Part shown: positions 3,971-60,797 of the stretch, piece by piece
Layout: every line of letters starts with the position of its first letter
Numbering within the stretch: the first letter of the stretch is position 1
IMG/VR virus record: IMGVR_UViG_3300015262_000004
Span: 1 to 64,000 of that record
Reading direction: 5' to 3' (one strand)
Source: a virus
Length of the DNA stretch: 64,000 nt
The notes under the pieces: model-generated
What the model saw: only the letters and a program-made list of their open reading frames with translations
What the model was told of the DNA's origin: nothing
Database searches by the model: none
Made by a program: the position numbers and the translations under genes

Positions 3971-4242
3971 GACCGACCCCAGTTCGATAGCTCTGCATGC
4001 AGGTAGGCCTCAATAGGATCGTCGAATGGCTCCGTCGATTCCCAAGGCCGCGTGTTGCCAACGATGGTGTAGGCAGTCCAGCGCCCGGTGTCCATCTCGA
4101 CCCCGATCCCGTCCCAGTGGCTACCGTTGGGTATGTCCGTCCGCATCCGCAGTGTGGTAAGTCCCACCGGCACCATGAACCCGCGTTCTTCCAAGTATTC
4201 TCGCGCCTGTTCCAGCTGATCGACGGGGTGGATAGTGTTCAT
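3967..4242 (-). CDS. Small paralogue ending AELSNWGRS
   Basis: Encodes 91 aa. The ATG at 4242 (MNTIHPVDQLEQ) overlaps the upstream stop. It contains AREYLEERGFMVP, EMDTGRWTAYTI and IEAYLHAELSNWGRS, and is clearly homologous to the product of 3683-3970. The opening MNLIHPVD of the otherwise unrelated gene at 9181-9471 is similar. Function unknown. Confidence 0.87.
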   Translation of the reverse strand: MNTIHPVDQLEQAREYLEERGFMVPVGLTTLRMRTDIPNGSHWDGIGVEMDTGRWTAYTIVGNTRPWESTEPFDDPIEAYLHAELSNWGRS

Positions 4243-4535
4243 CGCCGCCCCCAGTTCGACAGCTCGGCCTGTACATAGCAAAGCGTGGGTGTATCTCGGG
4301 GAGGCCCCACAATGACCGTGGCGACCTCATCATGCACGACGCTGTGGACTCGGGCTGCGTGCCACATGATCACAGCCCCTGGTGCGCCGTCGATGACCGC
4401 AGCGCCCATGTCATAGGGGTTAACGTAAACGGGGGTGATGTGCAGCCCAAGGGAAGTGTTGGCAAACGTGTTGCCAATCACAGCGAACCCTCGCGCCGTC
4501 AAGAACTCCCGGTCTTGAACAGAGGCGATTGCCAT
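4239..4535 (-). CDS. Small paralogue ending AELSNWGRR; first gene of the paralogue operon
   Basis: Encodes 98 aa from the ATG at 4535, with GGAGAG 7 nt upstream and a palindrome hairpin before that. It has DREFLTARGFAVI and the C-terminal LCYVQAELSNWGRR; the middle has diverged from the other members. As the first gene after the leader hairpin it probably heads the four-gene paralogue operon that leads into parA/RHH. Function unknown. Confidence 0.85.
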   Translation of the reverse strand: MAIASVQDREFLTARGFAVIGNTFANTSLGLHITPVYVNPYDMGAAVIDGAPGAVIMWHAARVHSVVHDEVATVIVGPPRDTPTLCYVQAELSNWGRR

Positions 4536-4551
4536 AGGTGTCTCTCCAAGT

Positions 4552-4578
4552 GCGCCGTCCCTACTGTAGGGACGGCGC
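4552..4578. repeat. Dispersed hairpin palindrome, copy 2
   Basis: Perfect 27-bp palindrome: core TCCCTACTGTAGGGA extended by GCGCCG/CGGCGC arms. In the transcript it ends 4 nt before the GGAGAG site of the gene at 4239-4535. Confidence 0.9.
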
Positions 4579-4582
4579 TTGG

Positions 4583-4816
4583 CTACATGGTATGACTGAC
4601 CTGGCTACTTCGCACGAACCCGGTGCTGCACACCAGGTGCACCACACGTTGCTGCGGGGTCAGATATTGGGCGATCCGGTCGACCTCATCCGAACACGTC
4701 CGATCGACCGCTTGCTCTCCTCCCCAGGTGCGCACGATGCGCGCCGGACAGTCGGAGTAGGGCGGTTGATGGTTCTCGTGGAGGCACACATACATCGTCA
4801 GTGTTGTCAGGATCAT
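4583..4816 (-). CDS. Small hypothetical protein (77 aa)
   Basis: The ATG at 4816 is preceded by a strong GGAGGA site. It encodes MILTTLTMYVCLHENHQPPY and then C-P and C-S pairs, i.e. three or four Cys and several His that could bind metal, but no known finger pattern is evident. The 3' end reaches the leader palindrome of the next operon. Function unknown. Confidence 0.55.
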   Translation of the reverse strand: MILTTLTMYVCLHENHQPPYSDCPARIVRTWGGEQAVDRTCSDEVDRIAQYLTPQQRVVHLVCSTGFVRSSQVSHTM

Positions 4817-32943: not shown

Positions 32944-35900
32944 ATGATGGATGCGCTGGATTCCGATGCGCTTGATCAGACCTTTATCGACATCAAGTCG
33001 CACCCGGACTGGGCAAAGCTGAGCAAGCCGCAGCAGGACCAGGTGGTTCAAGACTTCGAAGCCCGCTACGACGCCCTGGAATCGCCGGGCAAATTCGACC
33101 GGGCTACCGAGGAGGTGGCCAAGCCGATCCACATCACCGACTTCCACCAGGGTATCGCGGCGGCAAACCGCAACCGTGGGGCCGGTGACGCGCAGGTGAT
33201 CGGCCTTGAAGACGTGGCGGAATTTGAGAACTTGACCCAACAGGCGGCACCGCCCGATGCCCGGGGCGTGTTCACCGACGGCAAAATCTACTTGATCCGC
33301 GAAAACCTCAGCAGCCCTGAGCAGATGGCAATCACCCTGGCGCACGAACGTGGTCACCATGGGTTGGCCGCGCTGCTGGGTGATCGTATGCCGGCCGTGC
33401 TCAACAGGTTGTGGACCAACCCGGCGACCCGTACCCGGATCAAGGCCAAGATGGTTGCCTTGCAGGCGGGTGAGGTCGACGTGGAGAACGGCAGCCTGCG
33501 TAAGTTGGCCGCTGAGGAAGTGTTGGCCGACATGTTCGCCGCTGGTGAGAAGGTCAACGGCGATATTCTCACCAAGGCCCGCAACGCTATCGAGCAGACG
33601 TTTGCCACGCTGCTGGGGGTGGGCAAACTGCGCATGAACAACAATGACGTGGATTCGATCCTGCGTGACGTCTCGGCGGTGCTCAAGGGCACCAGTGCTG
33701 GGGTGCTGCGCCAGGGCGAACCAATCGCGCGTGATCTGCCTGGCATGATGGCCGACCCGACGCCCTGGACAACGGGCGATGCTCGATTCAGCAGGGCGAT
33801 CGCGGACACCGACGAAATCATTCGGGCGGCCACGGCCGAGCAAGACGGTACCCGCCGTAACCTGGCTGACGTCATGGTCGATGTGGGTAAAGCCAGCATG
33901 GCCAAGGTGCGGGGGCTGGGCACGGCCACCGTTCGGGACAAGGTCGCCTCGGGACTGCTTAACGCGGTGCCGTTGAACCAGCTGGCCAGCTTGTACGACA
34001 AGCTGATGGAAGGCCGGTTGGGGAACTTTGCCCGTCTGAAACGTGCGCAAGAGTCGATGCACAACAAGTTGCTGACGCAGGAAAAGGATCTGCAGCTGGG
34101 TGACAAAACCTACAAGGTGTCGCCGCAGTCACTGTCAAAACAATGGGTGAGTTTTGCCCACCGCAACGAGGCCAAGGCCGCCGCGCTGAGTCAGCTGCAG
34201 CAGGAAGCGACCATGTACCGCCTCTGGCCGGGCCGTAAGTTCGAGGCGCAGAGCAAGGTCGGGTACGAGGCGGCCAGCTTTACCGAGGATGAACGCCGCG
34301 CGGCATCAGAGCGTGTCAACAAGTTGTGGGATGCCATGGGTACCGAAGCCCAGGAGATTTTCAACAAGTCCCAGGCCCTGTACGACCGCGCCTGGAACAC
34401 CCGGTTCGAGACGCTGCGCAAGGTGCTGGCTGAGAAAAGCAAGCCGGGCGACATGACCATGGATGAGTACGCCAAAACGCCCGCCTTCAAGCAGGCCTTT
34501 GGCAACATGATCGACACCGCGCTTGCCAAAATGCGCCAAGGCCCGTACTCGCCACTACAACGGTACGGCGACTACATGCTGACGGTGCGGGATAAGGCGG
34601 GTCAAGTCGCGTACTTCCATGGTTTCGACACCATCGAGGAACGGAACCTGGCCGAGCGGGATCTGCGCCAGGGCGAGTTCGCCGGCACGGATTATGTGAT
34701 CGCTCCCACTAAGCGCATGGAAACCACCTGGAGCCAGATGGGGCTCAACCAGCAGGCGATCGATCAGCTTGAGAACGTCGCGACCACCCTGTTTCCGTCT
34801 ACTAACTCCGAGTCAGGGGAGACGAAGACGGCGCGGGATCTGCGCCAGGCCCTGGTCGAGGCTTACCTGCAGTCGCTCCCGCAGCATTCATTCATGCAGC
34901 ACGCGAACCAGCGCAAGAACATCAAGGGTGGTTCGATCGATGCGATGCGCGGGTTCAACGACTACATGGGCAAGTCGAGCCGCAACATCGCCGGCCTGGA
35001 ATACAACCACCAGATCAGCGAGGCGTTGACCGGCCTCAGCACGTTCGTGACAGAGAAGGCCCAAGGCAAACTCGGCGAAGTGGACGGCGACACGTTGACC
35101 AAGATGAACCGGGTGGTCAACGCCGTCAGGGCGCAGCACGAAGCGTCGATCAAGTATGAGCGCTCGCCCGTGGCTGACATGATCAGTAGCGCAGGCTTTC
35201 TGATGTTCATGTCCTCACCCAGCCAGCTGTTCGTCAACGCCATGCAGGTACCGATGGTGACCCTGCCGCGCTTGGCCGGTGCCTACGGCAACACGTCGTC
35301 GATTCAGGCGCTCAGGGGCGCGTTGGGTGCCTTCGCGAAATCCCGGGGCGACCTGCGTGGCGACAAGTCGGTACTGGCACCAGGCAGCTGGGAACGCCGC
35401 GTGCTCGATACGCTGTACGAGCGGGGCATCCTGGACTTTACCCTGGCGCACGACATGAACGGGCTGGCCAATGGCGAGGGGTCGGCCATGTCCGGCCACT
35501 GGCGCAAGGTCATGGAAGCGGCCGGGTTCTTTATGCACCGCTCCGAAGTGTTCAACCGTCAGGTCACAGCCTTGGCAGCGGCCCGCCTGGAAGCGCAAAA
35601 GAGCGGTGTCAACACCGGGGCAATGACACAGGAGCAGGTCGACAGGCTGGCCGATTCCGTCGAAGACTCGGTGATCAGCACCCAGTTCGACTACAGCCAA
35701 TCGAACAAGGCCAAGCTGATGCAAGGCCCGTGGCGCAAGGTGATTTTCCAGTTCCAACAGTACCGCGTAAACATGTTGGCCATGATGGCCAAGGACGTCC
35801 GCGACAGCTTCACCGGTACCAAGGAGGAGAAGCAGACCGCCCGCCGTGCGTTGTCCTGGATGTTGGGGATGCAGCTGGCCCTCACCGGCGCGGCCGGCAC

Positions 35901-36669
35901 CGTGTTAGCTCCGATCGCCTTCGGCATCGCGGATCTGTTCCGTGACGATGATGACCTGTTGGATAGCCGCAGTGAATTCGTCCGGTCGGTACCGCAGTGG
36001 CTGGCCCACGGTGTGTTGTCCGGGGTACTGGATACGACCCGGATTGGCGCCGATGGACTGTTGTCAGCCGGCGGTGCTTATGCGCCCAAGGACGCGACGG
36101 CCAAGGAGAAGTTCCAGTATTACCTGCTGGCCAACATCGGCCCGTGGGCCGGCCTGGGTGCCAACGCTGCCACCGGCCTGGAGAAAGCCATGCAGGGCGA
36201 CCACGTTGGGGCGGTCAAGAACCTGGCCCCGGCCGGCGTACGCGACGTTTACCGCGCTTTGTTCGAGAGCCAGCAGGGGGCGAAGGACACTAGACAGGTT
36301 GTCTACTTCGAGCCTAACCTTTGGGACACAATGTCCACCGCGATGGGCCTAAAAAGTGGACGCCGTCGCGATGCCGAGGAGCTGCGTGGGGCTGCGTTCG
36401 AAGCGAACTTGCATACCCAGACACTCAAAGGCCGCAAGGTCGGTCGCCTGGCCCTTGGCTTCGCGACCGGTGATCCTGAAATGATCGCCACCGCACAGGA
36501 TGAGATACGCGAATGGAACAGCCGATACCCAGATATGGCTATTTCCGGCACCGCCGTACGACAAGCCACCTTGAACCGCGTGCGATCGCAGATGAACGCC
36601 GACCAGACCGGCGTGGCGTCTTCGCGGCCGCTCGGCCCATCCACTCGGGATGCCATAGGTCTGGATTGA
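32944..36669 (+). CDS. Large ejected polyvalent protein with zinc-metallopeptidase domain (1241 aa)
   Basis: ATG at 32944 without a convincing ribosome-binding site, in the same frame as the previous gene and 27 nt after its stop. Residues 130-196 have a zincin motif: TLAHERGHHG (HEXXH at 134-138) and, downstream, LAAEEVLADM supplying the likely third ligand. The centre is helical (KEDLQLGDKTYKVSPQSLSK), and near residue 950-1000 hydrophobic segments occur (RALSWMLGMQLALTGAAGTV). This matches large polyvalent or internal proteins that are injected into the host. The protease could act on virion or host proteins. Catalytic activity is inferred. Confidence 0.8.
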   Translation: MMDALDSDALDQTFIDIKSHPDWAKLSKPQQDQVVQDFEARYDALESPGKFDRATEEVAKPIHITDFHQGIAAANRNRGAGDAQVIGLEDVAEFENLTQQAAPPDARGVFTDGKIYLIRENLSSPEQMAITLAHERGHHGLAALLGDRMPAVLNRLWTNPATRTRIKAKMVALQAGEVDVENGSLRKLAAEEVLADMFAAGEKVNGDILTKARNAIEQTFATLLGVGKLRMNNNDVDSILRDVSAVLKGTSAGVLRQGEPIARDLPGMMADPTPWTTGDARFSRAIADTDEIIRAATAEQDGTRRNLADVMVDVGKASMAKVRGLGTATVRDKVASGLLNAVPLNQLASLYDKLMEGRLGNFARLKRAQESMHNKLLTQEKDLQLGDKTYKVSPQSLSKQWVSFAHRNEAKAAALSQLQQEATMYRLWPGRKFEAQSKVGYEAASFTEDERRAASERVNKLWDAMGTEAQEIFNKSQALYDRAWNTRFETLRKVLAEKSKPGDMTMDEYAKTPAFKQAFGNMIDTALAKMRQGPYSPLQRYGDYMLTVRDKAGQVAYFHGFDTIEERNLAERDLRQGEFAGTDYVIAPTKRMETTWSQMGLNQQAIDQLENVATTLFPSTNSESGETKTARDLRQALVEAYLQSLPQHSFMQHANQRKNIKGGSIDAMRGFNDYMGKSSRNIAGLEYNHQISEALTGLSTFVTEKAQGKLGEVDGDTLTKMNRVVNAVRAQHEASIKYERSPVADMISSAGFLMFMSSPSQLFVNAMQVPMVTLPRLAGAYGNTSSIQALRGALGAFAKSRGDLRGDKSVLAPGSWERRVLDTLYERGILDFTLAHDMNGLANGEGSAMSGHWRKVMEAAGFFMHRSEVFNRQVTALAAARLEAQKSGVNTGAMTQEQVDRLADSVEDSVISTQFDYSQSNKAKLMQGPWRKVIFQFQQYRVNMLAMMAKDVRDSFTGTKEEKQTARRALSWMLGMQLALTGAAGTVLAPIAFGIADLFRDDDDLLDSRSEFVRSVPQWLAHGVLSGVLDTTRIGADGLLSAGGAYAPKDATAKEKFQYYLLANIGPWAGLGANAATGLEKAMQGDHVGAVKNLAPAGVRDVYRALFESQQGAKDTRQVVYFEPNLWDTMSTAMGLKSGRRRDAEELRGAAFEANLHTQTLKGRKVGRLALGFATGDPEMIATAQDEIREWNSRYPDMAISGTAVRQATLNRVRSQMNADQTGVASSRPLGPSTRDAIGLD

Positions 36670-48908: not shown

Positions 48909-50531
48909 TCAGTCATCCCAGCCGGCGAATGCCAGCGCCGGATCGGCCAAGTGAGGTTGGTTCGGTGCGCCAGTGGGTTGTGCGTCTGGCTGTGGGCCAT
49001 TCGTCCAACCATCACCGCCGGCCGGCTGCTGTACAACAGGTTGCTGTTGAGCAACAGGTTGCTGGGTTTGCTGCGGCTGTTGCTGAGGCTGCGGCTGTTG
49101 GCCACCTTGAGCACGCTGCTTGTCAGCTTCGTCCAGGCGTTCGTCCTCCTGGATTTCCTCCTTGGTCCGGCGCTGCTTACCTGCCGAGGGCCGACCACGT
49201 TCGCGGCCACCTTCTGGTGCCAACGGGGCTTGCTGCTGCGGCGGCTGCTGGTTGTGCGCAGTGCCCTCCTCACCTGGCCACCCACCGGCGCCGACGTTGG
49301 CTGCTGGCTGATGGTTCTGCTGCGGCTGGTTGTTCACAACAGGTTGGGCTTGCTCACCCCAGCCCGCATTGGCAACAGGTTGCTGTGGGTCTTCACCCCA
49401 GCCCGCGCCGGCCGCTGGTTGTGGCCGCTGCTGGTTGGCTGGGTTGGTGGTAGCGCCGGCCCCGCTCCAGGTTTCGTGCGAAGCCGATTGCGGCATGCGC
49501 TCAACCGGTTGCGGCTGTTGCTGCGGCTGGTTAACAGGGCGCACTTGCTCACCCCAGCCCGCGTCGGCCGGCAGGTATTCTTGCTGCGGCTGTTGCTGCT
49601 GATGGTTCTGCTGCGGCTGGTTGTTCACAACAGGTTGGGCTTGCTCACCCCACCCAGCGTCGGACGGTGCCGGCCGTTGCTGCGGCTGCTGCTGGTGGGT
49701 CTGCTGCGGCTGCTGGTAGTTCTGCTGGGGCTGTTGCTGATGGTTCTGCGGCTGCTGCGGCTGTTGGTTGTACTGCGACTGCGGCGCTTGCAGCACGCCT
49801 TGAGCTTCGGCCAGGCCACACACGCGCTTGGCTTCTTCGTCATCGTAACGACCGTTCACCGCTTCGTATTCGTCCATGTCCAGCCAGCGTCTGGCTTTAA
49901 ACAACAGCTTGGGGAAACTGACGGTGGTGTCAAACGACAGGGTCGCGACGATCATGTTGTACGCGGCCGGTGGGGTGTTCGCACCCAGCCCGCTGATGAA
50001 CCCACGGAAGTCCTTGAGCGAAGCCGGCGGCACAGCCACCTGGTACAGGTCGCCCTTGTACGCGAAGCTACCACCCTGACCCGGGGCCATGATCGCCATA
50101 CGCTTGGTGTCTTGGCAGGCTTTGCCCTTGGCGCCCGTGGTTGGGTTCACGTAGGAACCCCACTGATTTTTCGGGCACTCGGCGCAGTTGACGTGCTGCT
50201 TGGCTGGTGAGTCAACGCGGGGTGCCACGCCGTCATCGCTTGAGCAATCCGGCTGGGTGGTGTCGTCGTTCGGGTTCCAGTCCTTGAGGTAGAACGTCTT
50301 GTTGATACCGTCGTTGATGCGGACGATGGCAACGTCCAGGTCGAAGGCCTGGATCGGCTGGATACTGCCGCCGATTACGCGGGAAAAGCGGCACTGTTTC
50401 AGGCTGATGCGGTTGACACCACCGACACCAGTGCCGACAACGGCACCGGCGTTCATCAGGCGAGCGCGGTCGGTTTGATTCTGGACATAGGCCGGGGCTT
50501 GACCCTGGCCAAAGGGAATTAGATTGCTCAT
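48909..50531 (-). CDS. Putative ssDNA-binding protein with long Gln/Pro-rich linker (540 aa)
   Basis: ATG at 50531 with AAGGA upstream. Residues 1-230 are an ordered beta-rich domain with a Cys cluster (HVNCAECPKNQWGS plus two further Cys), possibly zinc-binding. Residues 235-510 are Gln/Pro-rich, with repeats of A-G-W-G-E and of Q-P-V-V-N-N-Q-P-Q-Q. The C-terminus ends LAFAGWDD, an acidic aromatic tip as in SSB-type proteins. The replication neighbourhood supports an SSB-like role. No family is recognised, so this stays a hypothesis. Confidence 0.6.
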   Translation of the reverse strand: MSNLIPFGQGQAPAYVQNQTDRARLMNAGAVVGTGVGGVNRISLKQCRFSRVIGGSIQPIQAFDLDVAIVRINDGINKTFYLKDWNPNDDTTQPDCSSDDGVAPRVDSPAKQHVNCAECPKNQWGSYVNPTTGAKGKACQDTKRMAIMAPGQGGSFAYKGDLYQVAVPPASLKDFRGFISGLGANTPPAAYNMIVATLSFDTTVSFPKLLFKARRWLDMDEYEAVNGRYDDEEAKRVCGLAEAQGVLQAPQSQYNQQPQQPQNHQQQPQQNYQQPQQTHQQQPQQRPAPSDAGWGEQAQPVVNNQPQQNHQQQQPQQEYLPADAGWGEQVRPVNQPQQQPQPVERMPQSASHETWSGAGATTNPANQQRPQPAAGAGWGEDPQQPVANAGWGEQAQPVVNNQPQQNHQPAANVGAGGWPGEEGTAHNQQPPQQQAPLAPEGGRERGRPSAGKQRRTKEEIQEDERLDEADKQRAQGGQQPQPQQQPQQTQQPVAQQQPVVQQPAGGDGWTNGPQPDAQPTGAPNQPHLADPALAFAGWDD

Positions 50532-50553
50532 CACGGCTTATCCTTGGATTGGT

Positions 50554-51117
50554 TTATTTGCGACGAATGCGAACTTCGCGAACGTAGTCAATTTTCACGC
50601 CGGGGATGTGTTCCCCGGGGTGGGCCTCCATCCACGCCTTCACGTTGGTAGAACTGATCCGAGTCTGTAACAGGTCCACATCACCGTGTGTACGGATGTG
50701 CTCCGTTAAAGCCCCTTTGTCTCCTATTGCACACCTGAAAGCAGTTTGTGTGTACGCGGTGCCAAGGTTTGTACTCACGGAGTCCATATTGTGTGCATTC
50801 AGGAACCCGAGCAAGCCCCCTTCGCACCGGGCTAACTCCGCTTGTGGCACTTCCAGCTCTTTCGCATGGCGCGCTTTGATCTTCTCGATCTCATCGCGCA
50901 CTGTGATCGTCCGAGCCATGAGTTCATCCACCTGGGCGTTTGCTGCCGGGGCTGCGGGTTGCGGCCCCTGCGAATTCAGGAACTGAATGAATTTGTTCAC
51001 CTTGGTGTACGCCAAGGCCTGGTCAACATAAGGACCGAACCGGGACAGCAGGTCGGGTGTGTAGAAGTACCACTGTCCATCGGAATCCATATGGACGGGG
51101 TCGGCTTTGTAGTACAT
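50554..51117 (-). CDS. Coiled-coil replication-module protein (187 aa)
   Basis: ATG at 51117. The N-terminus MYYKADPVHMDSDGQWYFYT, then a helix with NAQVDELMARTITVRDEIEK, and a C-terminal domain DSVSTNLGTAYTQTAFRCAI with VKAWMEAHPGEHIPGVKIDY. Proteins with a coiled coil and this last domain (x-T-x-x-G-T-A-Y, then V-x-x-x-x-P-G-V) are common in phage replication modules without a known role. The promoter at 51155-51183 drives it and the genes down to 45.5 kb. Confidence 0.65.
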   Translation of the reverse strand: MYYKADPVHMDSDGQWYFYTPDLLSRFGPYVDQALAYTKVNKFIQFLNSQGPQPAAPAANAQVDELMARTITVRDEIEKIKARHAKELEVPQAELARCEGGLLGFLNAHNMDSVSTNLGTAYTQTAFRCAIGDKGALTEHIRTHGDVDLLQTRISSTNVKAWMEAHPGEHIPGVKIDYVREVRIRRK

Positions 51118-51154
51118 GGCGGCGACTCGCTCTGTTGCTGTGTGTATAGTTCCT

Positions 51155-51183
51155 ATACTAGATGACACGATCTACCCCGTCAA
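51155..51183 (-). promoter_or_regulatory. Sigma70-like promoter with overlapping palindrome
   Basis: On the minus strand TTGACG (51178-51183) and TAGTAT (51155-51160) are 17 bp apart. The palindrome GTATAGTTCCTATAC (51144-51158) lies over the -10 box, like those at 1662-1676 and 10488-10502. It would drive the genes at 50554-45479. Confidence 0.7.
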
Positions 51184-52752
51184 CTATTGCAACCCAAGTT
51201 CCCCGAGGAACAGATTTAACACCGACCCTTGCACGTCCTTCTTGCTGCGCAAGGCCCTGTAAATGTTCTCTTCCAGCTTGGTCGCCGCGATCGTAGCCAC
51301 AGTCATATTGCGGGTTTGACCCGGCCGGTTCATGCGGTTGTTCGCTTGCTCGAAAACTTCCAGGCTGCTGATAGGTGCGTACCAAACGGTGGTGTCCGCT
51401 TCGGTCAAGGTCAGGCCGTGGGCTGTGGTGCCTGGGTGCGCGACGATGATCCGAGGTTCGACCTGTTGCTGGAAGTCGGAGAATATCTTTTTGCGCTGCG
51501 TGTCCGATGTCCTCCCGTCCACTTTTGCCACTGTCCACCTTTTTGCCAGATGTGCGGCCACAGCGTCGAGCGCCTGGGTGAAGGGCACGAAAACGATCAC
51601 CTTGTGTGCACTCTGTTCCACAACCTGTTCGCACAACTGCAGTCTCTCCTTGGTGTCGACGCGGTGGCTGGCCCCGAACTCGTCGTACAGGGAACCCACG
51701 CATATCTGTAGCAACTTGGTCATCTTGACCGCCGCGTTCGCGGCTGTGATCGTCACGCCCCGGATCTCGGTGGCCATGGTGGTGATCATTGAGCGGTACG
51801 CGGCCTGTTGTTCCGGTGTCAGACCACAGGTCAGCGAAACGAAACTCACCGGCGGCAGGTCAATGCAGTCCTCTTTCTTGAAGCGGATCCCCGGTTGCAT
51901 GATCGCGTACGCCTGAGTGTACGCGTCCGGTTTGGGTACCCACTTGTACTGGGTCAATTGCAGCATAGTCTGATCACGGAAGGCCGTGAAGTACGCCGGT
52001 CTTACCCGGTTTCCATGCATCAGCTTAGCCAATCCCCACGCATCCGTCGGAGCTTCTGGGCACGGCGTGCCGGTCATCAGCCACATCCAGTCGGTGCCGC
52101 GTACCAGGCTGGCCAGCAGCGCATGCCGCTTGGACGCCGGGTTACGGAACGCGCCGGCTTCGTCGATGATCCACAGGTTGATGTCTGTCCTACCCCGCAA
52201 TTCCTTCTCGACCACCTTGAGCCCGTCGTGATTGATGATGTAGATGTCGGCCGGGTCGTTGAGAATTTTCTGCCTGCGCTTGCGATCGCCGTACACCACG
52301 TTGACCTTGAGCCGCGACAGGAAGTGGTTGCGAATCTCATCCTCCCACACGCTAAACAGCGTGGACTTAGGACACACGACGATCGCGCGCTGGATGATCC
52401 CCAGCGATTTCATGTAGTCGAACGACCACAACGCGCTGAGGGTTTTGCCCGTGCCCATGTCGTTGAGGCAGATGCTGCGGTTGTAGAGGGTGAAGAATTC
52501 GGAGGTGGTGACCTGGTGGTCGAAGGGCTTGAACGGTGGCTTGATGGGGAAGTCGTAGAAATACCTGATGGGTGACGGCGCCGCGATGCCGAGGTTGCGC
52601 AGTACCCTGGCCTCATCGAGGCCGAACCGAACTTGGGTCAGCATTCCCTGCTCGGGGTCGTTAACCAGCCGTGACTTGGGAATGTTGAGCAAGACCCGGT
52701 CGGGCTCGCGCAACTTGAGCACCAGGCTCTGGCTTTCCTTGTGTACTAGCAT
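51184..52752 (-). CDS. SNF2-family DNA helicase/translocase
   Basis: Encodes 522 aa. Motif I NDMGTGKTLSALW (Walker A near 98-104), motif Ia VCPKSTLFSVWEDE, motif II WIIDEAGAFRNP (D197, E198), motif III LMTGTPCPEAPTD, and motifs V and VI HPGTTAHGLTLTEADT and EQANNRMNRPGQTR. Phage SNF2 proteins of this length accompany VRR-NUC nucleases and may process forks or recombination intermediates. It overlaps the VRR-NUC gene end by 92 bp. Confidence 0.9.
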   Translation of the reverse strand: MLVHKESQSLVLKLREPDRVLLNIPKSRLVNDPEQGMLTQVRFGLDEARVLRNLGIAAPSPIRYFYDFPIKPPFKPFDHQVTTSEFFTLYNRSICLNDMGTGKTLSALWSFDYMKSLGIIQRAIVVCPKSTLFSVWEDEIRNHFLSRLKVNVVYGDRKRRQKILNDPADIYIINHDGLKVVEKELRGRTDINLWIIDEAGAFRNPASKRHALLASLVRGTDWMWLMTGTPCPEAPTDAWGLAKLMHGNRVRPAYFTAFRDQTMLQLTQYKWVPKPDAYTQAYAIMQPGIRFKKEDCIDLPPVSFVSLTCGLTPEQQAAYRSMITTMATEIRGVTITAANAAVKMTKLLQICVGSLYDEFGASHRVDTKERLQLCEQVVEQSAHKVIVFVPFTQALDAVAAHLAKRWTVAKVDGRTSDTQRKKIFSDFQQQVEPRIIVAHPGTTAHGLTLTEADTTVWYAPISSLEVFEQANNRMNRPGQTRNMTVATIAATKLEENIYRALRSKKDVQGSVLNLFLGELGLQ

Positions 52753-53197
52753 GGCTCACCGTCGTTTGCTTGGGCCGGCGCGGGGCCGCGCTGCCCTTTT
52801 CAAAAGGTATGAACACCTCGGCATAGCCGTGGCATCGAGCAACGTGCCCAACGCAGGTGTTCTTGGTTCTCTCGGTATCACCGAACAACGCGTTGATGCG
52901 CCATCCCGGTTTCTTCAACCACTTTTCCAGCAAGCCAAGGTTGTCGCGGTTGATCACCAGGCTGCTGCCATTGCAGGCCATGACCCGGTTCAACCACAGC
53001 CGTTGCAGCACGGATACCCGCTTGATGTTGCCGGCCTTGTACTCGACCCCGCCGAAGTGCCCATCACTGCGACACACGACGTCATCGGCACGGCCGTTCT
53101 GGCCCATGCCGTTCATAACGGTACGGTCATACATTGCGCCGTGCAGCTTGATCAGCTGCTTGGCCTTGTCCTTAACCTTGCCCTCGGGTGTGGCCAT
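52661..53197 (-). CDS. VRR-NUC domain nuclease
   Basis: Encodes 178 aa, ATG at 53197, giving MATPEGKVKDKAKQLIKLHG. The VRR-NUC core shows GRADDVVCRSDGHFGGVEYK (the D and E-x-K catalytic residues) and later LQRLWLNRVMACNGSSLVIN. This family cuts flaps or branched DNA. Translation is probably coupled to the upstream stop (TGATG), and the leader hairpin (copy 12) contains the AGGGA ribosome-binding sequence. The 3' end overlaps the SNF2 gene. Confidence 0.85.
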   Translation of the reverse strand: MATPEGKVKDKAKQLIKLHGAMYDRTVMNGMGQNGRADDVVCRSDGHFGGVEYKAGNIKRVSVLQRLWLNRVMACNGSSLVINRDNLGLLEKWLKKPGWRINALFGDTERTKNTCVGHVARCHGYAEVFIPFEKGSAAPRRPKQTTVSHASTQGKPEPGAQVARARPGLAQHSQVTAG

Positions 53198-53514
53198 CAG
53201 GCGATCCCTACTGTAGGGACACTGCTGCGCTTCCACTGCGACAGCTCGGCATGCGCGAACGCTGCCAGCACGCTGTCGAACGGGGGCGACGTATAGAACC
53301 CCCGGTTGGCTTGCCACACAAAACGATCCTGCTCTAAGTCGTACGCGGCGTAAAGGAAGTGCGTCCAGTCCCACACTGCATCCCGTGCCAACGTGACGTG
53401 CTCGCCATAGTCCGGGGTCGGCACAACGCGTGGTGCGAACCCGGCTGCCTTGAGTGTAGCCACGGCCTCACGGCCTGCCTGCTGCAGCGCCAGGCTAAAA
53501 CCTTGTCGGTTCAT
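53197..53514 (-). CDS. Small paralogue ending AELSQWKRS
   Basis: ATG at 53514 (MNRQGFSLALQQAGREAVAT), overlapping the upstream stop (ATGA). It has TLKAAGFAPR, a middle with YDLEQDRFVWQANRGF, and LAAFAHAELSQWKRSSVPTV. The A-E-L-x-x-W signature relates it to the four genes at 3429-4535, 49 kb away. The last codons are the translated palindrome copy 12 (V-P-T-V-G). Confidence 0.8.
   Translation of the reverse strand: MNRQGFSLALQQAGREAVATLKAAGFAPRVVPTPDYGEHVTLARDAVWDWTHFLYAAYDLEQDRFVWQANRGFYTSPPFDSVLAAFAHAELSQWKRSSVPTVGIA
53205..53219. repeat. Dispersed hairpin palindrome, copy 12 (overlaps a ribosome-binding site)
   Basis: TCCCTACTGTAGGGA just upstream of the VRR-NUC start and inside the 3' end of the paralogue gene. 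In the transcript AGGGA, the likely ribosome-binding sequence, is in the stem, so pairing could limit translation of the nuclease. Confidence 0.9.
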
Positions 53515-54636: not shown

Positions 54637-55746
54637 CTACCCCGCCCTTTTACCGTTGTGTTCGCAGCTCATCACGTCACACCAGGCTTTACACAACCCG
54701 TTGGGGCGCTTCGGCCAAGCCTGCCTGGTGTACGCGTCCTGCAGCTGCGCGTATTTGTGGTCGAACTCCGACCACACAGACTGTACGTTGCTGCGTGCAA
54801 TGATAACCGGCGGCGTGATCTGCTTGTGTTCTAACCAGATGTAACCCGAAGCCACCTCATCGATGTCCGGGTAATCCGCCAGGGTGAACCCGTCGTACAG
54901 TTTCAACTGGCCCGCGTCGTTGCGGATCTTGCCGGTCTTCCAGTCGAACACCTCAGCCTTGCGTTCCTGTGGGTACAGGATTGTGATGTCGACCTTGCCC
55001 CGGATCCATGCGTCCTTAGACTTGTAGCCAGTTTGCGTGCGGTCGCGGGTGACTGCCGCTTGCCGCTCGGCCATCACGATCCCGCCGCGTCTTGCGGCCC
55101 GCTCCAACACCCAGTCACCGTAGGGTGCGTAGTGCATCATGTTCCCCGGCATACCGCTACTGCCTTGGGTTATCACGTACTTCTCCAACCCGTTGTGGGC
55201 ATCGTCGCCCCACTTGGCGTCGGCACTTTGAACGTACTTCACTTCCTTGGTGATGTACTTGGCGTGGTACTGGTAGGCACAGGTGTCGAACACACCCAGC
55301 GATGAATACGACTGCGGGAAAATGTAGGGTGTCGGTGGCGCAACGTCCGCTGCCTTCACCGTGGCGTTAGGGTAGACCACCTCAACGCGGAGGCCGTAAG
55401 TTTTGGCCACCTCGATCATCTGCGCGGTGCCCCGGCTCGACCCATCCCACATCGCTACCAACACGCTGTCAGGAACTTCACTGGCGTATACCGCCATATC
55501 ACCGTTGCGAATGAAGCCGGCCCCTTTGTTGGTGCTGCCGTCTGGGTTCTGCCAGGCGGGGATGAACTGGCGCACAGGGATGCCGAACATGCCGGCGATC
55601 TCCTCACCCCACTGGTCCGGCCCCATCGCGTGACCACTGATGATTTCAGTGGGCTTGCTGGTACACACCCGCTTCACCGTCTCAAGCAAGCGCTCGAAGT
55701 TCCCGACGCGGGTGATGTCCCGGGAACCCGCAATGATCAGTCTCAT
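54637..55746 (-). CDS. SLOG domain fused to Fe-S PD-(D/E)XK nuclease (369 aa)
   Basis: Residues 1-125 form a SLOG/DUF2493 nucleotide-binding domain: MRLIIAGSRD, SGHAMGPDQWGEEIA and WDGSSRGTAQMIEVAKTYG. Residues 140-369 are a RecB/Cas4/AddB-type nuclease: SYSSLGVFDTCAYQYHAKYI (Cys156), H184, GKVDI (D253), and EVFDWKTGK (D268-W-K270). C-terminal cysteines in LCKAWCDVMSC (352, 356, 361) with Cys156 form the pattern of a 4Fe-4S cluster as in Cas4 and AddB. The enzyme is probably a 5'-3' exonuclease for recombination. A SLOG domain suggests regulation by a nucleotide or nucleic-acid-derived ligand. The fusion is unusual. Activity is inferred. Confidence 0.83.
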   Translation of the reverse strand: MRLIIAGSRDITRVGNFERLLETVKRVCTSKPTEIISGHAMGPDQWGEEIAGMFGIPVRQFIPAWQNPDGSTNKGAGFIRNGDMAVYASEVPDSVLVAMWDGSSRGTAQMIEVAKTYGLRVEVVYPNATVKAADVAPPTPYIFPQSYSSLGVFDTCAYQYHAKYITKEVKYVQSADAKWGDDAHNGLEKYVITQGSSGMPGNMMHYAPYGDWVLERAARRGGIVMAERQAAVTRDRTQTGYKSKDAWIRGKVDITILYPQERKAEVFDWKTGKIRNDAGQLKLYDGFTLADYPDIDEVASGYIWLEHKQITPPVIIARSNVQSVWSEFDHKYAQLQDAYTRQAWPKRPNGLCKAWCDVMSCEHNGKRAG

Positions 55747-56042
55747 GGTTCAACCTCGCCATTCAGTCCATGTCGACAACCTGTTGTCGCAAGGTCGCCG
55801 CCTTCTGTTCCAGCCGTTCCCGCCTCGCTGGGTCTTTTACCGTGGCAGCCAGCAACGCCGCCGTCTCTGTTGCCTTGATCAGTACCGCCTTCAATCGCTG
55901 CTTGTTCATGCTTACCCACCCTTGGCTTGTTCGTTACCATTCCGAAGTCTTCCCGGAGTTTTTCTATCCGGGTGCAGTCGATGCACTCGCGTGTGCCGAT
56001 GCTGTGGAAATAAACCCAGCAGTGCTTGCGCGGCTTTCTCAT
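55743..56042 (-). CDS. Small Cys-rich protein overlapping a shorter gene (99 aa)
   Basis: ATG at 56042, which overlaps the polymerase stop (TAATG). The N-terminal part HCWVYFHSIGTRECIDCTRI has a C-x-x-C and looks real. The second half is low-complexity Gly-rich sequence and overlaps another plausible gene (55763-55909), so the true end of this protein is uncertain, possibly through a frameshift. Confidence 0.55.
   Translation of the reverse strand: MRKPRKHCWVYFHSIGTRECIDCTRIEKLREDFGMVTNKPRVGKHEQAAIEGGTDQGNRDGGVAGCHGKRPSEAGTAGTEGGDLATTGCRHGLNGEVEP
55763..55909 (-). CDS. Small helical protein (48 aa)
   Basis: ATG at 55909 preceded by a purine-rich AAGGGTGGGTAAG. It encodes MNKQRLKAVLIKATETAALL and PARRERLEQKAATLRQQVVD, regular amphipathic helices. 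It is more protein-like than the frame of 55743-56042 in the same interval. Too short for domain assignment. Confidence 0.5.
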   Translation of the reverse strand: MNKQRLKAVLIKATETAALLAATVKDPARRERLEQKAATLRQQVVDMD

Positions 56043-58162
56043 TACTTACACTCGCTGTACCGGATGCCGTGGCCACCCTCGGCCGCAAGCGGCAGCTGTG
56101 GCCACCAGGTAGGCGACTGACTCATGACGCCGAGCATAAAGGCCAGGCAGTCATCCGCTTTTTCCTCCTTCACCACGGCAACCACTTCGTCGTGCACTGT
56201 CAGGGCCACGCCTTCCAGTGGGTCAGGGCTGCGGTACTTGTGCTGCACTTCCAGCATCTGATCGAACACCGCGTTACGAGCAAGCCACTGGCTGACGTTC
56301 TCCGTCACCGACCCGCCGTAAATCTTTTTCATGTGACGCTTTTCTTTGTCGTCGTAGACCCATTGCATCTCCAGGTCGCCGTCGAAATTCTCCAGCAGTT
56401 CCTGCCGTAGGTTGTGGTACACGATCGGGTTACGGCCTGGCTGGCTGATCTGGCCATCGTCGATCTTGCACAGCCCCCACTGGTCGATGTACCCGCCGCC
56501 ACCCCGGGCCATCCGTGGGATCGCGTTCTGGCAGCTGCGCCACAGCTTCGGTATCTCTGAGAACCTGCTGCGGTACACGGTCACGGTGCCTTGCGATTCA
56601 TCCTCGCTGAGCCGGATGCCGCCCATGGTTCGAGCCGCGTTCCTGAATGACTTCCATCCCGACTGGTACTGCAGCTGCAGCATGCCGACCTTGCCGTGTT
56701 GCCGCTCGGTGTAGTCCGCCTTGGTGATCGTCCTGTTGTACAACGTGCTGGCAAAGGATGAGTACACGTCGACGCCGGCCCGCAGCTCGGCGATCGTGTC
56801 CATCTGACCAGCCAGCAGGTGGCACACCCGCAGCTCGATCTGCGCCGAGTCAGCCACCACGATTCGATACCCCGGCGGCGCCTCGATCGCGTCACGCAAA
56901 CCGACAACGTGGCACGACTGCTGCCGCTCGTTGCTGTACACCGCGCCGTTCGCACACTTCACCTGGCCTGTGACCAGGTGGTAATCCAGCAGCCTGTCAG
57001 GCCCGTGCGGGGTCATGATCAGGGTACCCAGCGGCGTTTTCTTGCTGACCTTTCTGGTACCGGTCAGGTTCTGCATGTTGATCTTCTGCCCACCGGCCAG
57101 GCGGTGGGTGTGAACCTTGCCGTACACCATCGGCACGGGCAGCCGGCCCCGCCCTGCGATGTTGATAAACCGTTCTACCCGTGACTCGTTGATGGTTGAT
57201 TTAACGCTGAGTCGAGCGGCGGCCAGTGCCTGTATATCCTCGGCCCCCTGCGGATCTGATTCGTCTTCGTAGTCCAGCAGCGCAACCATCGGCTCATCGG
57301 TTTTCGCAAACGCGTACACCACCATCGGCGAACCGTCGGGGTTCTTTTTCTTGGGGCTCAACTTGGTCGGTGGGTCGATGTCGTAGTGCTGCTTGAACAC
57401 GTCGGCCAGTACGGCGTCCTTCCTCAACAGCCGCTGGACTTCCAGCGTCCGGGTCAGTGCATCCGTACCCGCCGGCACGCCCATGATGTCGGCCACCCGC
57501 ATCATCAGCTTGCCCTTTCGTATCTCCATATCCTGCGCCATGGTGCACAGAAGTGCACGGTTTAGGACCAGCTTGGGTTCGGCAAACATCGAGGTGGACA
57601 GACTGGCCAACCACAACTCGTTGACGGGCATCTGTGGCACGAACAAGTTGAACAATTCAAAGCAGCGATCGCTGTCGTCGCAGCAATAATCGCCGTAGTC
57701 CTGCAGTTCCCACGGGGTGAAGTCCGCGCGGCGTTTGTTCACGTACGTTTTGACCTGGGTGCCCTTGGCCTTCAACCCGTACAGCTCACACATCGCAGCC
57801 AGGGACTTCGCCTGCTTGCCACCGTGTAGCGACCGTGCCATCTGCAACGTGCAGCCATAGCCGGCCGGTCTGACGCCGATGATCTCGGTCAGGATGAACG
57901 CGTCGAACTCGGAATTGTTGTGCCCTATGCAGAAAATGCGGTGCCACGGCAGGGCTCTCAGGATCCCGCGCAGATACTCCAACGTGCCCGAGTACCAACG
58001 TGCCGGCGCCCGGCCCTTCTTGATGCTGAATCCAATGATCTCGAACCGAGGATCCCTAACGTATTCCTCGGTCGTCATGTAGGTCAGGGAGTACCCGCCC
58101 TGGTCCTTGGTGGTGTAGAACGTTTCGAAGTCGAGGGTCAACTGCAGCAACGGTTCGTTCAT
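56042..58162 (-). CDS. DNA polymerase, family A
   Basis: Encodes 706 aa; ATG at 58162 (MNEPLLQLTLDFETFYTTKD). The 3'-5' exonuclease has ExoI LDFETF (D11, E13), ExoII GHNNSEFDAFI and ExoIII DYGDYCCDDSD. The polymerase has motif A VVADSAQIELRV, a diverged motif B HGKVGMLQLQYQSG and motif C VHDEVVAVV. It is the size of T7-like polymerases and lacks the 5' nuclease domain. It would be the replicase, with the primase-helicase in the same module. Confidence 0.93.
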   Translation of the reverse strand: MNEPLLQLTLDFETFYTTKDQGGYSLTYMTTEEYVRDPRFEIIGFSIKKGRAPARWYSGTLEYLRGILRALPWHRIFCIGHNNSEFDAFILTEIIGVRPAGYGCTLQMARSLHGGKQAKSLAAMCELYGLKAKGTQVKTYVNKRRADFTPWELQDYGDYCCDDSDRCFELFNLFVPQMPVNELWLASLSTSMFAEPKLVLNRALLCTMAQDMEIRKGKLMMRVADIMGVPAGTDALTRTLEVQRLLRKDAVLADVFKQHYDIDPPTKLSPKKKNPDGSPMVVYAFAKTDEPMVALLDYEDESDPQGAEDIQALAAARLSVKSTINESRVERFINIAGRGRLPVPMVYGKVHTHRLAGGQKINMQNLTGTRKVSKKTPLGTLIMTPHGPDRLLDYHLVTGQVKCANGAVYSNERQQSCHVVGLRDAIEAPPGYRIVVADSAQIELRVCHLLAGQMDTIAELRAGVDVYSSFASTLYNRTITKADYTERQHGKVGMLQLQYQSGWKSFRNAARTMGGIRLSEDESQGTVTVYRSRFSEIPKLWRSCQNAIPRMARGGGGYIDQWGLCKIDDGQISQPGRNPIVYHNLRQELLENFDGDLEMQWVYDDKEKRHMKKIYGGSVTENVSQWLARNAVFDQMLEVQHKYRSPDPLEGVALTVHDEVVAVVKEEKADDCLAFMLGVMSQSPTWWPQLPLAAEGGHGIRYSECK

Positions 58163-58194
58163 CCAGCCTCCGAAACCGAGCGCGACCCTCGATC

Positions 58195-58413
58195 TCAATC
58201 CATGGGGTTATCCTTGGGTAGGTCGGCCTCGACTTTGCGCAGTTCCGCTAAGACGACTTCGCCCCCCGCGTGGCCTGGCTCGAACACGAACGGATACGTT
58301 CCGTTGCGCACGTTGCACACCACAGCCCGGGTTTTGTTACACAACTTCCCGATCTGGCTGTCGGTGTATCCAGCGTTGGCCAAGGTCTTAAACACTTTTT
58401 GCCAATCGGTCAT
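58195..58413 (-). CDS. Cro/XRE-like helix-turn-helix protein (72 aa)
   Basis: ATG at 58413 with GAGG about 7 nt upstream. FKTLANAGYTDSQIGKLCNK followed by TRAVVCNVRNGTYPFVFEPG is a good Cro/C1-type helix-turn-helix. It sits directly upstream of the polymerase gene. It might repress the replication operon. A weak TATACT box lies upstream (58443-58450). Confidence 0.7.
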   Translation of the reverse strand: MTDWQKVFKTLANAGYTDSQIGKLCNKTRAVVCNVRNGTYPFVFEPGHAGGEVVLAELRKVEADLPKDNPMD

Positions 58414-58493: not shown

Positions 58494-59399
58494 TCACACG
58501 GACTGATGCTCTACCTCGGGCAATTCCAGCTCCTCTTGGGCGCCGCGTTGGATCGCTTGCCCGGTCATCTCTTCCAGTTCCCAATCGGCCAGGGCCTTGC
58601 GGCTGCGCTCCAGGTGATCAACCACCAACTCACCCGGCATGATGCCGGCGAAGGCCTGGTGCATCTTGGTCAGGTTGGTGTCGATGTCTTCGTAATTGAA
58701 CAGCTGGCTGGCGTGGATCTCCATGTTGTCCATGGCTTCGCCGATCGTTTCCAACCCGCAGAAATAGGCCATGGCCAACGTGTCTTGGCGGGCGTGCTCC
58801 AGATCCCAGGATTCACGGCCTTGCTCGTAGATCGGTGCCAACACCGGCCCGAGGATCGCGAACGCTTGAATCAGGTGGCCAGCCTGGCCCATCGCATCGG
58901 GCAGAGCGCCGTGCGACTGCCAGTTTTTAGCGAAGTACCCGTGCGGGAACAGTTCGCGGATGGTGCGCTGGTCCTTCCACTGCCAATACTTCCACGGATG
59001 AACCAGCCCCGTGCCCTTGTAAGCCGACTCCAACCACACACGGTCGCGGTCGCCGCACTGCCACAATCGAACCTTGGGATACTCACCCTCGGGCAACTCA
59101 TCGGTGAACCCCAACCACTCGCTGAATTCCACCAGCGCCTGCATCAGCGGCACACGGTTGACGTCCAGGCCAAAGATCAGAGCCTGCGTCTCGGGCTTCT
59201 GTCGCATCCACCAGGCCACGGTGCTGGCGTCGATCACGCCGCCGCCTGGCTGCTCGATGTCGACCACCCGGGAAAAGGTATCGCCGAGGGTGCCGTCATG
59301 GATGTCGAACTTGACCGCGCCGATCGACAGGATGCACGCCTCATCCTTTAGGGACAGGGTTTCGCAGTCGACGGAAACATCTTGTACTTTCGTGCTCAT
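58494..59399 (-). CDS. DEDDh 3'-5' exonuclease
   Basis: Encodes 301 aa; ATG at 59399, with TTGGAGAACCACGG upstream. Motif I VSVDCETLSLKDEACILSIG (D11, E13), a D in the second motif and HGALPDAMGQAGHLIQAF (H-x-x-x-x-D) fit the DEDDh family of RNase T/Rv2179c-like exonucleases common in phages. It could trim RNA or DNA ends during replication. It lies between polymerase and ligase genes. Confidence 0.85.
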   Translation of the reverse strand: MSTKVQDVSVDCETLSLKDEACILSIGAVKFDIHDGTLGDTFSRVVDIEQPGGGVIDASTVAWWMRQKPETQALIFGLDVNRVPLMQALVEFSEWLGFTDELPEGEYPKVRLWQCGDRDRVWLESAYKGTGLVHPWKYWQWKDQRTIRELFPHGYFAKNWQSHGALPDAMGQAGHLIQAFAILGPVLAPIYEQGRESWDLEHARQDTLAMAYFCGLETIGEAMDNMEIHASQLFNYEDIDTNLTKMHQAFAGIMPGELVVDHLERSRKALADWELEEMTGQAIQRGAQEELELPEVEHQSV

Positions 59400-59424: not shown

Positions 59425-59850
59425 TCATTCGCCCCAGTTGTCCAGGTACGCAGCCGTTAACGCGGCAAGCGGGTCGGCGCATTCAATGCCCCGGTAGAAA
59501 CCGAACGTCTGGGCGGCCGGGTCACGTTCCCATTGCACCGCTGCCCACTGCCCCGGTTCCAACCGGCGGATCTCGCGCTTCCCGCAGGGGCTGACGAAGC
59601 CGTGTGACTTCCACCGCCAGCCCATCTTGCGCATCCGCCTCCAGGTGGACAATCGTACACCCGGACCGACTGTCTGGTACAAGGCATAGACCATGATGAC
59701 CACCGCTGTCCACGTTAGTACACTACCAATCCACCAAATAGTTGCACGCGTCCACTCTGGCAACCATTGCGAAACCACCTGCAGCAAGGCGCCGGCCGTA
59801 GTCATGGCTAAGAACCCGCCACCTCGGGTCATTCGGTCGTGCCAGTTCAT
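59425..59850 (-). CDS. Membrane-anchored paralogue-family protein (141 aa)
   Basis: Two predicted membrane spans at the N-terminus (AMTTAGALLQVVSQWL; IWWIGSVLTWTAVVIMVYAL). A soluble part follows with MGWRWKSHGFVSPCGKREIR, WAAVQWERDPAAQTFGFYRG and LAALTAAYLDNWGE. The ending matches the small-paralogue signature (A-x-L-x-N-W-G), so this is a member fused to a membrane hairpin. It is the only one with predicted membrane segments. Confidence 0.75.
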   Translation of the reverse strand: MNWHDRMTRGGGFLAMTTAGALLQVVSQWLPEWTRATIWWIGSVLTWTAVVIMVYALYQTVGPGVRLSTWRRMRKMGWRWKSHGFVSPCGKREIRRLEPGQWAAVQWERDPAAQTFGFYRGIECADPLAALTAAYLDNWGE

Positions 59851-60797
59851 CCCATATCTCTAAGGTCACGGAACCCTTCCCACACGGGGAACCGGGGCTT
59901 GTCTTTCTCACCGATCGGAAAGCGCTTGAACTTGGCGATGCGGCCCACCAGCTGGTCGCGGATAGCCCACAGTTGCCGGCGCTGGTCGGCAGTAAACCCG
60001 TTGCCAATGTTGAACTCAGCACCGGCCAGGTTCTTGCAGACCAGCGCGCCGAGGGTGCCCTTGCCTACCATCCCACCGGCGTGGCTCGACCGCTTGGTGT
60101 AGCCCAACTCGTTGATGGTGGCTTCGTTGGTGTTGTGCATCTCCTCGATGTAACCAATCACCAGCGCCTCATCGCTCACGAACCGCTTGAACTTGTACAG
60201 CCAGCCCTCTAGAACGGTCGATCGGCCGTGTTTGTACGGGCCTGTCGGGTCGCGGCCCATCAGTCCCTCGAACCCCAGGTTGATCGCGTTCTGCTCGGCC
60301 CGCAGCAGCTGCTCGATGTTGTGCACCATGATGTGCCGCAACACTTTTATCCACGGGGCGTGCCGCTCGATCTCATCGGCGTACTGCGTCAGGCGGTTGT
60401 ACCTGCCCTGGAACACATGACGCTGCACCTCGCTGATCGGCACGTAGTCGAACACGTACCAAGTAAAGGCCGGCGCTTCGTCCCGGGACATCACACCGCT
60501 GGTGGTGCGGTTGAACACACCCTCACCGGTGGCACTACCCACCACCAGCTCACCGTCGAAGGGTGCCGGTAGGTTGGCTGCGTAGGAAAGGGACTGGATG
60601 TGTTTGTTTGGGATCAGCTTGAGTGAACGTGAGTACAGCCGTCCACCCCAACGTGTTGCCCGTATACCGTCCACCTTGGGGCTGACCAGATACGGGAACC
60701 GCAGCTGGTCAGGCGGGGGTGCATCGGCAGCCAGCATCGGACGCTTCGGCGCAACCGTGGGTAAAAAGGGCAGCTCAGCCTCGGGGCTCAGGTCCAT
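59847..60797 (-). CDS. ATP-dependent DNA ligase
   Basis: Encodes 316 aa. Nucleotidyltransferase motif I SPKVDGIR (adenylated Lys41), motif III FDGELV (F80-D-G-E), motif IV GFEGLMGR (E177) and motif V LYKFKRF. It is the size of small T7-type ligases. The start at 60797 has an AGGTG site, and palindrome copy 13 lies further upstream. It overlaps the membrane protein gene (ATGA). It seals nicks during replication. Confidence 0.92.
   Translation of the reverse strand: MDLSPEAELPFLPTVAPKRPMLAADAPPPDQLRFPYLVSPKVDGIRATRWGGRLYSRSLKLIPNKHIQSLSYAANLPAPFDGELVVGSATGEGVFNRTTSGVMSRDEAPAFTWYVFDYVPISEVQRHVFQGRYNRLTQYADEIERHAPWIKVLRHIMVHNIEQLLRAEQNAINLGFEGLMGRDPTGPYKHGRSTVLEGWLYKFKRFVSDEALVIGYIEEMHNTNEATINELGYTKRSSHAGGMVGKGTLGALVCKNLAGAEFNIGNGFTADQRRQLWAIRDQLVGRIAKFKRFPIGEKDKPRFPVWEGFRDLRDMG

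Follow-up and report, generated by a model that had tools for sequence, protein, structure and literature searches.

A YAcAr-type SLOG domain joined to a Cas4/AddB-type PD-(D/E)XK nuclease within a phage replication module

The window analyzed here is a stretch of 64,000 nucleotides (positions 1 to 64,000) of the IMG/VR record IMGVR_UViG_3300015262_000004, which is 64,559 bases long. The source virus is a tailed phage with matches to terminase, portal/adaptor and major head proteins; one structural protein of the window has no match in named phages. On the minus strand, the window encodes a 369-residue protein (54637..55746, ATG start) that is composed of: (i) a YAcAr-like SLOG domain (residues 1-124; 55375..55746), (ii) a linker (residues 125-136; 55339..55374) and (iii) a PD-(D/E)XK nuclease domain of the Cas4/AddB type (residues 137-369; 54640..55338). 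This N-terminal joining of a SLOG to a nuclease, proposed in an earlier sequence-only reading, is confirmed by domain searches, an AlphaFold2 model and fold matches. The nuclease domain is matched by PDDEXK_1 of Pfam (residues 146-360; E 1.5e-9; 38.6 bits against a cut-off of 22) and by the exonuclease family phrog_69 (residues 143-367; E 3.7e-17), and the SLOG domain by phrog_289 (residues 1-125; E 1.1e-19). The YAcAr family (PF10686) matches residues 1-66 of the window protein (E 3.9e-5) at 23.8 bits, below the curated cut-off of 28.2 bits that is passed by the orthologues of records L013 (31.9), L014 (28.9), L094 (34.2) and L097 (30.1); the L098 protein has no YAcAr match. YAcAr and PDDEXK_1 are the only Pfam domains found in the window protein at E values up to 1. 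NCBIfam yields no match, the single protein has no relative among the sequences of solved structures, and PADLOC returns no match for it and weak, Cas4-like matches for its relatives.

The AlphaFold2 model of the fusion (86-row alignment) has a mean pLDDT of 94.1 and predicts a complete Rossmannoid in residues 1-124 and a RecB-type nuclease in residues 139-369. Confidence is weakest at the linker and the stretch that adjoins it and, with a pTM of 0.73, the orientation of the two domains in the model is uncertain. Structural comparison by VIA-align was run on the best 1000 Foldseek chains, among which the nuclease part is closest to ACE1 (9iac; Z 15.8, rmsd 3.2, 209 residues aligned), followed by AdnA (Z 14.9), Cas4 (8d3l, Z 12.8) and AddB (4ceh, Z 12.6). 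The SLOG part matches YpsA (2nx2; Z 11.9, rmsd 3.2, 123 aligned), DprA (3uqz, Z 11.5), ShosA (8zva, Z 11.1) and ThsA (6lhx, Z 10.0). Profile searches by sequence agree, as the nuclease alignment finds ACE1 (E 4.8e-6) and Cas4 (E 2.6e-4) and the SLOG alignment finds DprA (best E 0.0079).

The nuclease domain retains the residues typical of its family, as counted on 36 of 70 unfused nucleases and all seven fused ones. H184, E188, E227, D253, D268, K270 and Q280 are invariant (36/36 and 7/7), including His184 of the GxxxH...E motif (55195..55197, minus strand, as for all residues below), Asp253 (54988..54990) and the DxK motif D268-W-K270 (54937..54945). Equally invariant are four cysteines, one preceding the nuclease core and three following it, namely Cys156 (55279..55281) and C352-x3-C356-x4-C361 (54664..54693), which the sequence-only reading had correctly located. 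The C-x3-C-x4-C spacing occurs in 26 of 42 rows, the others having x2-3 and x4-6, and R249, present in 36/36 unfused nucleases, is retained among the fused ones by the window protein alone. Cas4 Sso0001 has the same one-before/three-after arrangement of cysteines, for which a zinc site is described as an alternative to an Fe-S cluster (PMC3466216). By analogy with Sso0001 (PMC3466216), the window nuclease may bind an iron-sulfur cluster and act with 5'-3' polarity.

SLOG clades were reportedly defined by Burroughs et al. in 2015. The SLOG domain of the window has a Rossmannoid fold with the G-S/G-R, SGxAxGxD, RN and WDGxSxGT motifs that characterize 43 unfused relatives (43 of 79 were used for the counts). 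These correspond to pocket motifs G7-S8-R9 (55720..55728), S37-G38-H-A40-M-G42-P-D44 (the GxD signature; 55615..55638), K74-G-A76-G77-F-I-R80-N81 (55504..55527) and W100-D-G-S-S104-R-G106-T-A-Q-M110 (55417..55449). Sixteen columns are invariant in 43/43 unfused SLOGs (G7, R9, G38, A40, G42, D44, W65, A76, G77, R80, N81, M84, W100, S104, G106 and M110), and all sixteen are retained in six of the seven fusions, the exception being L098; position 74 of the unfused SLOGs is Lys in 34/43 and Arg in 4/43. The sequence-only reading had allowed that the N-terminal domain might lack a ligand pocket; in the window, the pocket is intact. A list of 22 pocket residues, drawn up with the alignment in view, is invariant at 22/22 positions versus 33/102 elsewhere in the SLOG. 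The SLOG is also more conserved than the nuclease in several pairs of intact fusions (75% v 55% between the window and L097 proteins), but not in all, as the window-L094 pair has 53% in the SLOG v 56% in the nuclease.

The G42-P-D44 of the window SLOG corresponds to GxD/E, the substrate motif described for the YpsA clade (PMC6459960). By contrast, the phosphoribohydrolase motif of LOG, PGGXGTXXE, which includes the catalytic Glu (PMC4979012), is not matched by the G106-T107-A-Q-M110 of the window. Met110 occupies the position of the catalytic Glu in 43/43 unfused and 6/7 fused SLOGs; thus, the SLOG domain probably binds a ligand rather than hydrolyzes it.

The fusion gene is part of a replication module on the minus strand. 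Upstream are a small 99-residue ORF (55743..56042), whose stop overlaps the fusion start (ATGA) and which has similarity in L093 only, a family A DNA polymerase (PolA; 56042..58198) and an Rv2179c-like 3'-5' exonuclease (58494..59399), the latter two identified by Pfam, PHROG and module BLAST, and an ATP-dependent DNA ligase (59847..60797; Pfam and PHROG). Downstream are a VRR-NUC-like endonuclease ORF (52661..53374; phrog_93), an SNF2/DEAD-type DNA helicase (51184..52752; Pfam, PHROG and module BLAST) and the two module genes of 48909..51168, one encoding a Pam3 gp33/Gam-like protein (50554-51168) and the other a conserved protein whose C-terminal tail is very long and rich in Gln/Pro (48909-50534; phrog_27714, function not assigned). 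In Rhizobium phage RHph_TM3_14A, a gene between the nuclease and the helicase is annotated as VRR-NUC. BLAST of the window against its relatives reveals a common order of 3'-5' exonuclease, PolA, SLOG-nuclease, VRR-NUC-like ORF, SNF2 helicase, gp33-like ORF and Gln/Pro-tailed ORF, with some genes missing at some loci and certain loci cut short or broken. The same order is found in Pseudomonas phage Rollin and in L101, where the nuclease has no SLOG. A CRISPR Cas4 identity is unsupported, as the neighbors examined are replication genes.

The SNF2 helicase of L094 (6706-9225) is 839 residues long, with about 320 extra N-terminal residues compared to the 522-residue helicase of the window. The Rollin nuclease homolog (L001:5986-7713, WNV50632.1) is interrupted directly behind the DxK Lys by an insert that resembles an intein and matches LAGLIDADG_3. 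Elsewhere in the window, a 1241-residue protein with a match to a DarB-like antirestriction PHROG (32944-36669) lies beside a 750-residue ORF that matches the virion RNA polymerase family phrog_2206 (30664-32916), and this region looks like one of injected polyvalent-type proteins.

When viral contigs are scanned with alignments of the SLOG and of the nuclease, together with profiles, the fusion is found in six other IMG/VR records (L013, L014, L094, L095, L097 and L098); L093 and L096 duplicate the L013 and L014 contigs. Since L094/L095 and L014/L097 are close pairs, the fusion represents about five lineages including the window. The fused frame had been flagged as a possible sequencing artifact, and this is ruled out by its recurrence in the six other records. 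The same six account for the fused proteins among the best 80 nuclease relatives. At 80% coverage of the fusion query, none of 239 named phage records matched by tblastn and none of 10 matching plasmid records qualifies; a scan with the single fusion protein finds nothing, and one scan of species genomes yields an unfused SLOG in Dyella and no fusion. In L097, a 350-codon open frame (3561-4610) lies upstream and in frame with the SLOG start; it has no Pfam match, overlaps the PolA end in another frame and is probably a shadow ORF.

The nuclease tree (24 rows: seven fused, 14 of 36 unfused viral-contig rows, Rollin, L005 and L006) places the fused nucleases in one clade of moderate support (83/75); Rollin (100/98) branches off just outside it, followed by L101 (99/99). 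In both Rollin and L101, the module nuclease has no SLOG and a SLOG is absent from the rest of the record. As these SLOG-less relatives share the gene order, the SLOG looks like one later addition, and its single gain onto a standing replication exonuclease is moderately supported. The SLOG and this nuclease were not found as separate genes that travel together: a SLOG occurs in 1/16 records of the unfused nuclease (pv27), and a search of 26 SLOG records with this nuclease gives a single weak partial match (1/26). In Vibrio phage H188, genes for a 'Cas4-domain exonuclease' and a SLOG are adjacent, a single case in a record that has no match to the profile of this nuclease.

L098 is a natural pocket-loss variant in which the predicted Rossmann core and the nuclease are retained. 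Of 23 positions without variation in seven SLOGs that lack this nuclease as a fusion partner, its SLOG retains 4, compared to 20-21 of 23 in the other fusions; in a second alignment D44, G77, N81, M84 and S104 of the sixteen invariant residues line up, such that the retained count depends on the alignment. The L098 nuclease retains 85/93 family-invariant residues and sits inside the fused clade beside L094/L095 (100/97). Differences between L098 and L095 at codon positions 1/2/3 are.51/.50/.51 in the SLOG, a pattern as under little constraint, and.25/.19/.47 in the nuclease; the SLOGs of the intact pair L013 and L095 differ at.30/.25/.50. The model of L098, whose alignment included intact homologs that favor folding, predicts a Rossmann core (E2-7, H14-27, E34-37, H45-54, E58-60, H71-84, E90-95, H100-111 and E116-120) with confidence that falls at the pocket loops (61 for residues 61-70 and 75 for residues 71-80). 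A frameshift is rejected as the cause of the pocket loss, as the other frames are without SLOG motifs. Pocket residues are retained in L098 at 6/22 v 19/33 for the others (Fisher p 0.03), a weak test of loss aimed at the pocket. As the pocket is lost while the nuclease stays constrained, the SLOG looks like an accessory input and not part of the cutting machine.

The reading preferred here, at a probability a little short of even, is that the SLOG is a non-catalytic sensor through which a nucleotide-type ligand alters the attached replication/recombination exonuclease. In the proposed mechanism, the four-Cys exonuclease of the Cas4/AddB type probably works alongside PolA and the helicase of the phage in trimming or resecting DNA ends, and the ancestor of a small clade would have gained the N-terminal YAcAr SLOG once. 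With an intact pocket and the LOG catalytic Glu missing, the domain would most likely sense rather than catalyze, and its binding of a small ligand of nucleotide type (for example, a derivative of ADP-ribose, or a nucleotide that rises or falls in infection) may alter the nuclease. The sensor reading is supported by the fold likeness to YpsA, a predicted ligand binder, and to ThsA, a shown sensor of cADPR, as well as by L098, where loss of the pocket with retention of the nuclease is as expected of a dispensable regulator. In ThsA, isomers of cADPR are bound by the SLOG, which controls the SIR2 enzyme joined to it (PMC10022894, PMC11204291), and SLOGs fused to phage DNA enzymes are proposed by Iyer et al. 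2022 to sense NAD/ADPr derivatives and to control their partners (PMC9503650). The reading is weakened by the absence of Macro, Nudix and NADAR genes from all nine records searched (the seven fused, L101 and Rollin), several of which are fragments. Also against it are the mostly replication-related neighbors of the unfused SLOGs, the likeness of pocket arginines to those of DprA, the YAcAr score of the window protein below the cut-off and the uncertain domain orientation. Of the three interpretations offered by the sequence-only reading, the best fit is a recombination exonuclease that acquired a control domain, in line with the conserved module, the SLOG-less relatives and the conserved pocket; a nuclease gated by a nucleotide ligand is plausible; and an anti-defense enzyme is weakened by the Glu-to-Met replacement and by the lack of ADP-ribose-processing genes in the nine records.

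Neighbors of the unfused SLOGs were surveyed at the 62 of 78 loci left after removal of near-copies. This survey yields 122 neighbors, 103 of them on the same strand, of which 96 were analyzed after manual exclusion of seven short neighbors of 51-104 codons. Most of those to which PHROG assigns a function are DNA replication and nucleotide genes and not ADPr genes, an uncontrolled count over the top 25 of 118 families. A Macro domain exceeds its cut-off in 1/27 SLOG-bearing records. In phage phiEco32 (L011; 2897-4393), a SLOG gene directly follows a gene for an ECF sigma factor, and a Macro-domain gene lies just before the latter.

A DprA-like role, in which the SLOG is a single-stranded DNA module that holds the DNA end or feeds it to the nuclease and no small-molecule control is involved, is somewhat unlikely yet the strongest rival. 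DprA is tied with YpsA as a fold match of the SLOG. In Helicobacter DprA (HpDprA), R52, K137 and R143 are ssDNA-binding residues, of which R52 and R143 contact the ssDNA (PMC4489622). In the profile alignment, R9 of the window aligns with R48 of HpDprA (J99 numbering, = R52) and R80 with R139 (= R143), a weak pairing as this stretch alone scores below 0 bits; K74 precedes R80 by six residues as K137 precedes R143, a likeness of spacing only. Since R9 and R80 line up with the ssDNA-binding arginines of DprA, the pocket may hold DNA. Also in keeping with this role, DNA polymerase A has a fused SLOG as well, on another branch; helicases, polymerases, exonucleases, Gp2.5 and Sak4 are among the neighbors of unfused SLOGs; and DprA is put forward in a survey of jumbo phages as an additional ssDNA-binding protein of phages (PMC7824862). 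The fused SLOGs, however, have a net charge of -2 to 0 compared to a mean of +2.1 for the 43 unfused SLOGs, and K108 (26/43 unfused) and H109 (32/43) are replaced by Ala and Gln/Gly in the six intact fusions. The window SLOG has Met at position 41, where 36/43 unfused SLOGs have Arg or Lys. RecA is, moreover, absent from the record of the window and Sak4 from the nine records. The low net charge and the loss of K108/H109 in the fused clade place the sensor reading somewhat above the DprA-like one, with low certainty.

Two further rivals are improbable, and about equally so. In the first, the SLOG would be an enzyme that degrades an ADP-ribose derivative used by the host as an immune signal, with the nuclease as no more than its carrier. 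Iyer et al. 2022 suggest such an activity, in that cADPr-type signals may be cut by viral SLOGs at the 1'-ribosyl-adenine bond (PMC9503650); against this are the missing LOG motif and catalytic Glu, the lack of Macro, Nudix and NADAR partners in the nine records, the scarcity of Macro among the SLOG records and the location of the gene within a replication module. Alternatively, the SLOG may be a structural or dimerizing adaptor whose pocket residues are kept for folding, such that the fusion is without regulatory meaning; the Rossmann core predicted for L098 despite the loss of most pocket residues, its intact nuclease and its even codon-position differences suit an adaptor, but retention of all sixteen invariant columns in the six other fusions and the concentration of invariance in the pocket list argue against it.

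Within the sensor reading, a more specific proposal, itself unlikely, is that the fusion is a phage counterpart of the Thoeris effector, in which the SLOG reads a cADPR-type alarm of the host and switches the exonuclease of the phage's own replication module. If true, immune signaling would alter phage DNA processing, L098 would represent a line that shed the alarm input, and phages would have wired SLOG inputs into core replication enzymes at least twice (the Cas4-like nuclease and PolA). A known ligand for phage YAcAr SLOGs is not stated in the literature searched. This one locus offers natural comparisons between SLOG-less (Rollin, L101), pocket-intact and pocket-lost (L098) forms and, as DNA degradation is a simple read-out, the fusion is suited to finding the SLOG ligand and to telling sensing from DNA binding.

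The combination of a SLOG with a Cas4-type nuclease is new, while SLOGs joined to phage DNA enzymes are already known. Searches of the literature found no paper on SLOG with Cas4, or on ShosA with DprA, in phage. Phage Cas4-like pfam12705 proteins (PMC5704561) and Cas4 Sso0001 (PMC3466216) share the PD-(D/E)XK motifs and the four conserved cysteines with the window protein, which differs from them in its N-terminal SLOG and its replication-gene neighbors; the main text of PMC5704561 mentions neither SLOG nor DprA. ACE1, an Argonaute-associated member of the Cas4 family (PDB 9iab, 9iac), is the best fold match of the nuclease, but has 15% identity to it and no SLOG. Thoeris ThsA (SIR2-SLOG) likewise joins a SLOG to an effector enzyme; by contrast, the partner in the window is a nuclease and not SIR2, the owner is a phage, and sensing of cADPR is shown for ThsA only. 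DprA/Smf shares the SLOG fold and the aligned pocket arginines, whereas the window SLOG is joined to a nuclease and has a low net charge.

The fusions of Iyer et al. 2022 link a SLOG to HTH, HNH, 3'-5' exonuclease, SF1 helicase or guanylate kinase domains and have in common with the window protein the joining of a SLOG to a phage DNA-processing domain (PMC9503650); 'cas4' and 'recb' have no occurrence in the main text of that paper, and the partner in the window is a nuclease of the Cas4/RecB type. DNA polymerase A likewise has an N-terminal SLOG, of the same family, in Vibrio phage 367.14 (L002:5001-7619), L068 (3989-6733) and L087 (3995-7618), and these proteins may correspond to the fusions that Iyer et al. 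2022 list under '3'-5' exonuclease'. The L087 protein has a long insert inside the polymerase that is without a Pfam match. No further enzyme-sized fusion is found among the 171 SLOG ORFs of the fetched loci (near-copies included). In the SLOG tree, the polymerase fusions (96/85) and the nuclease fusions (100/99) are on different branches, although the deeper branches are weak. Thus, this domain was probably attached to core replication enzymes of phages on two or more occasions.
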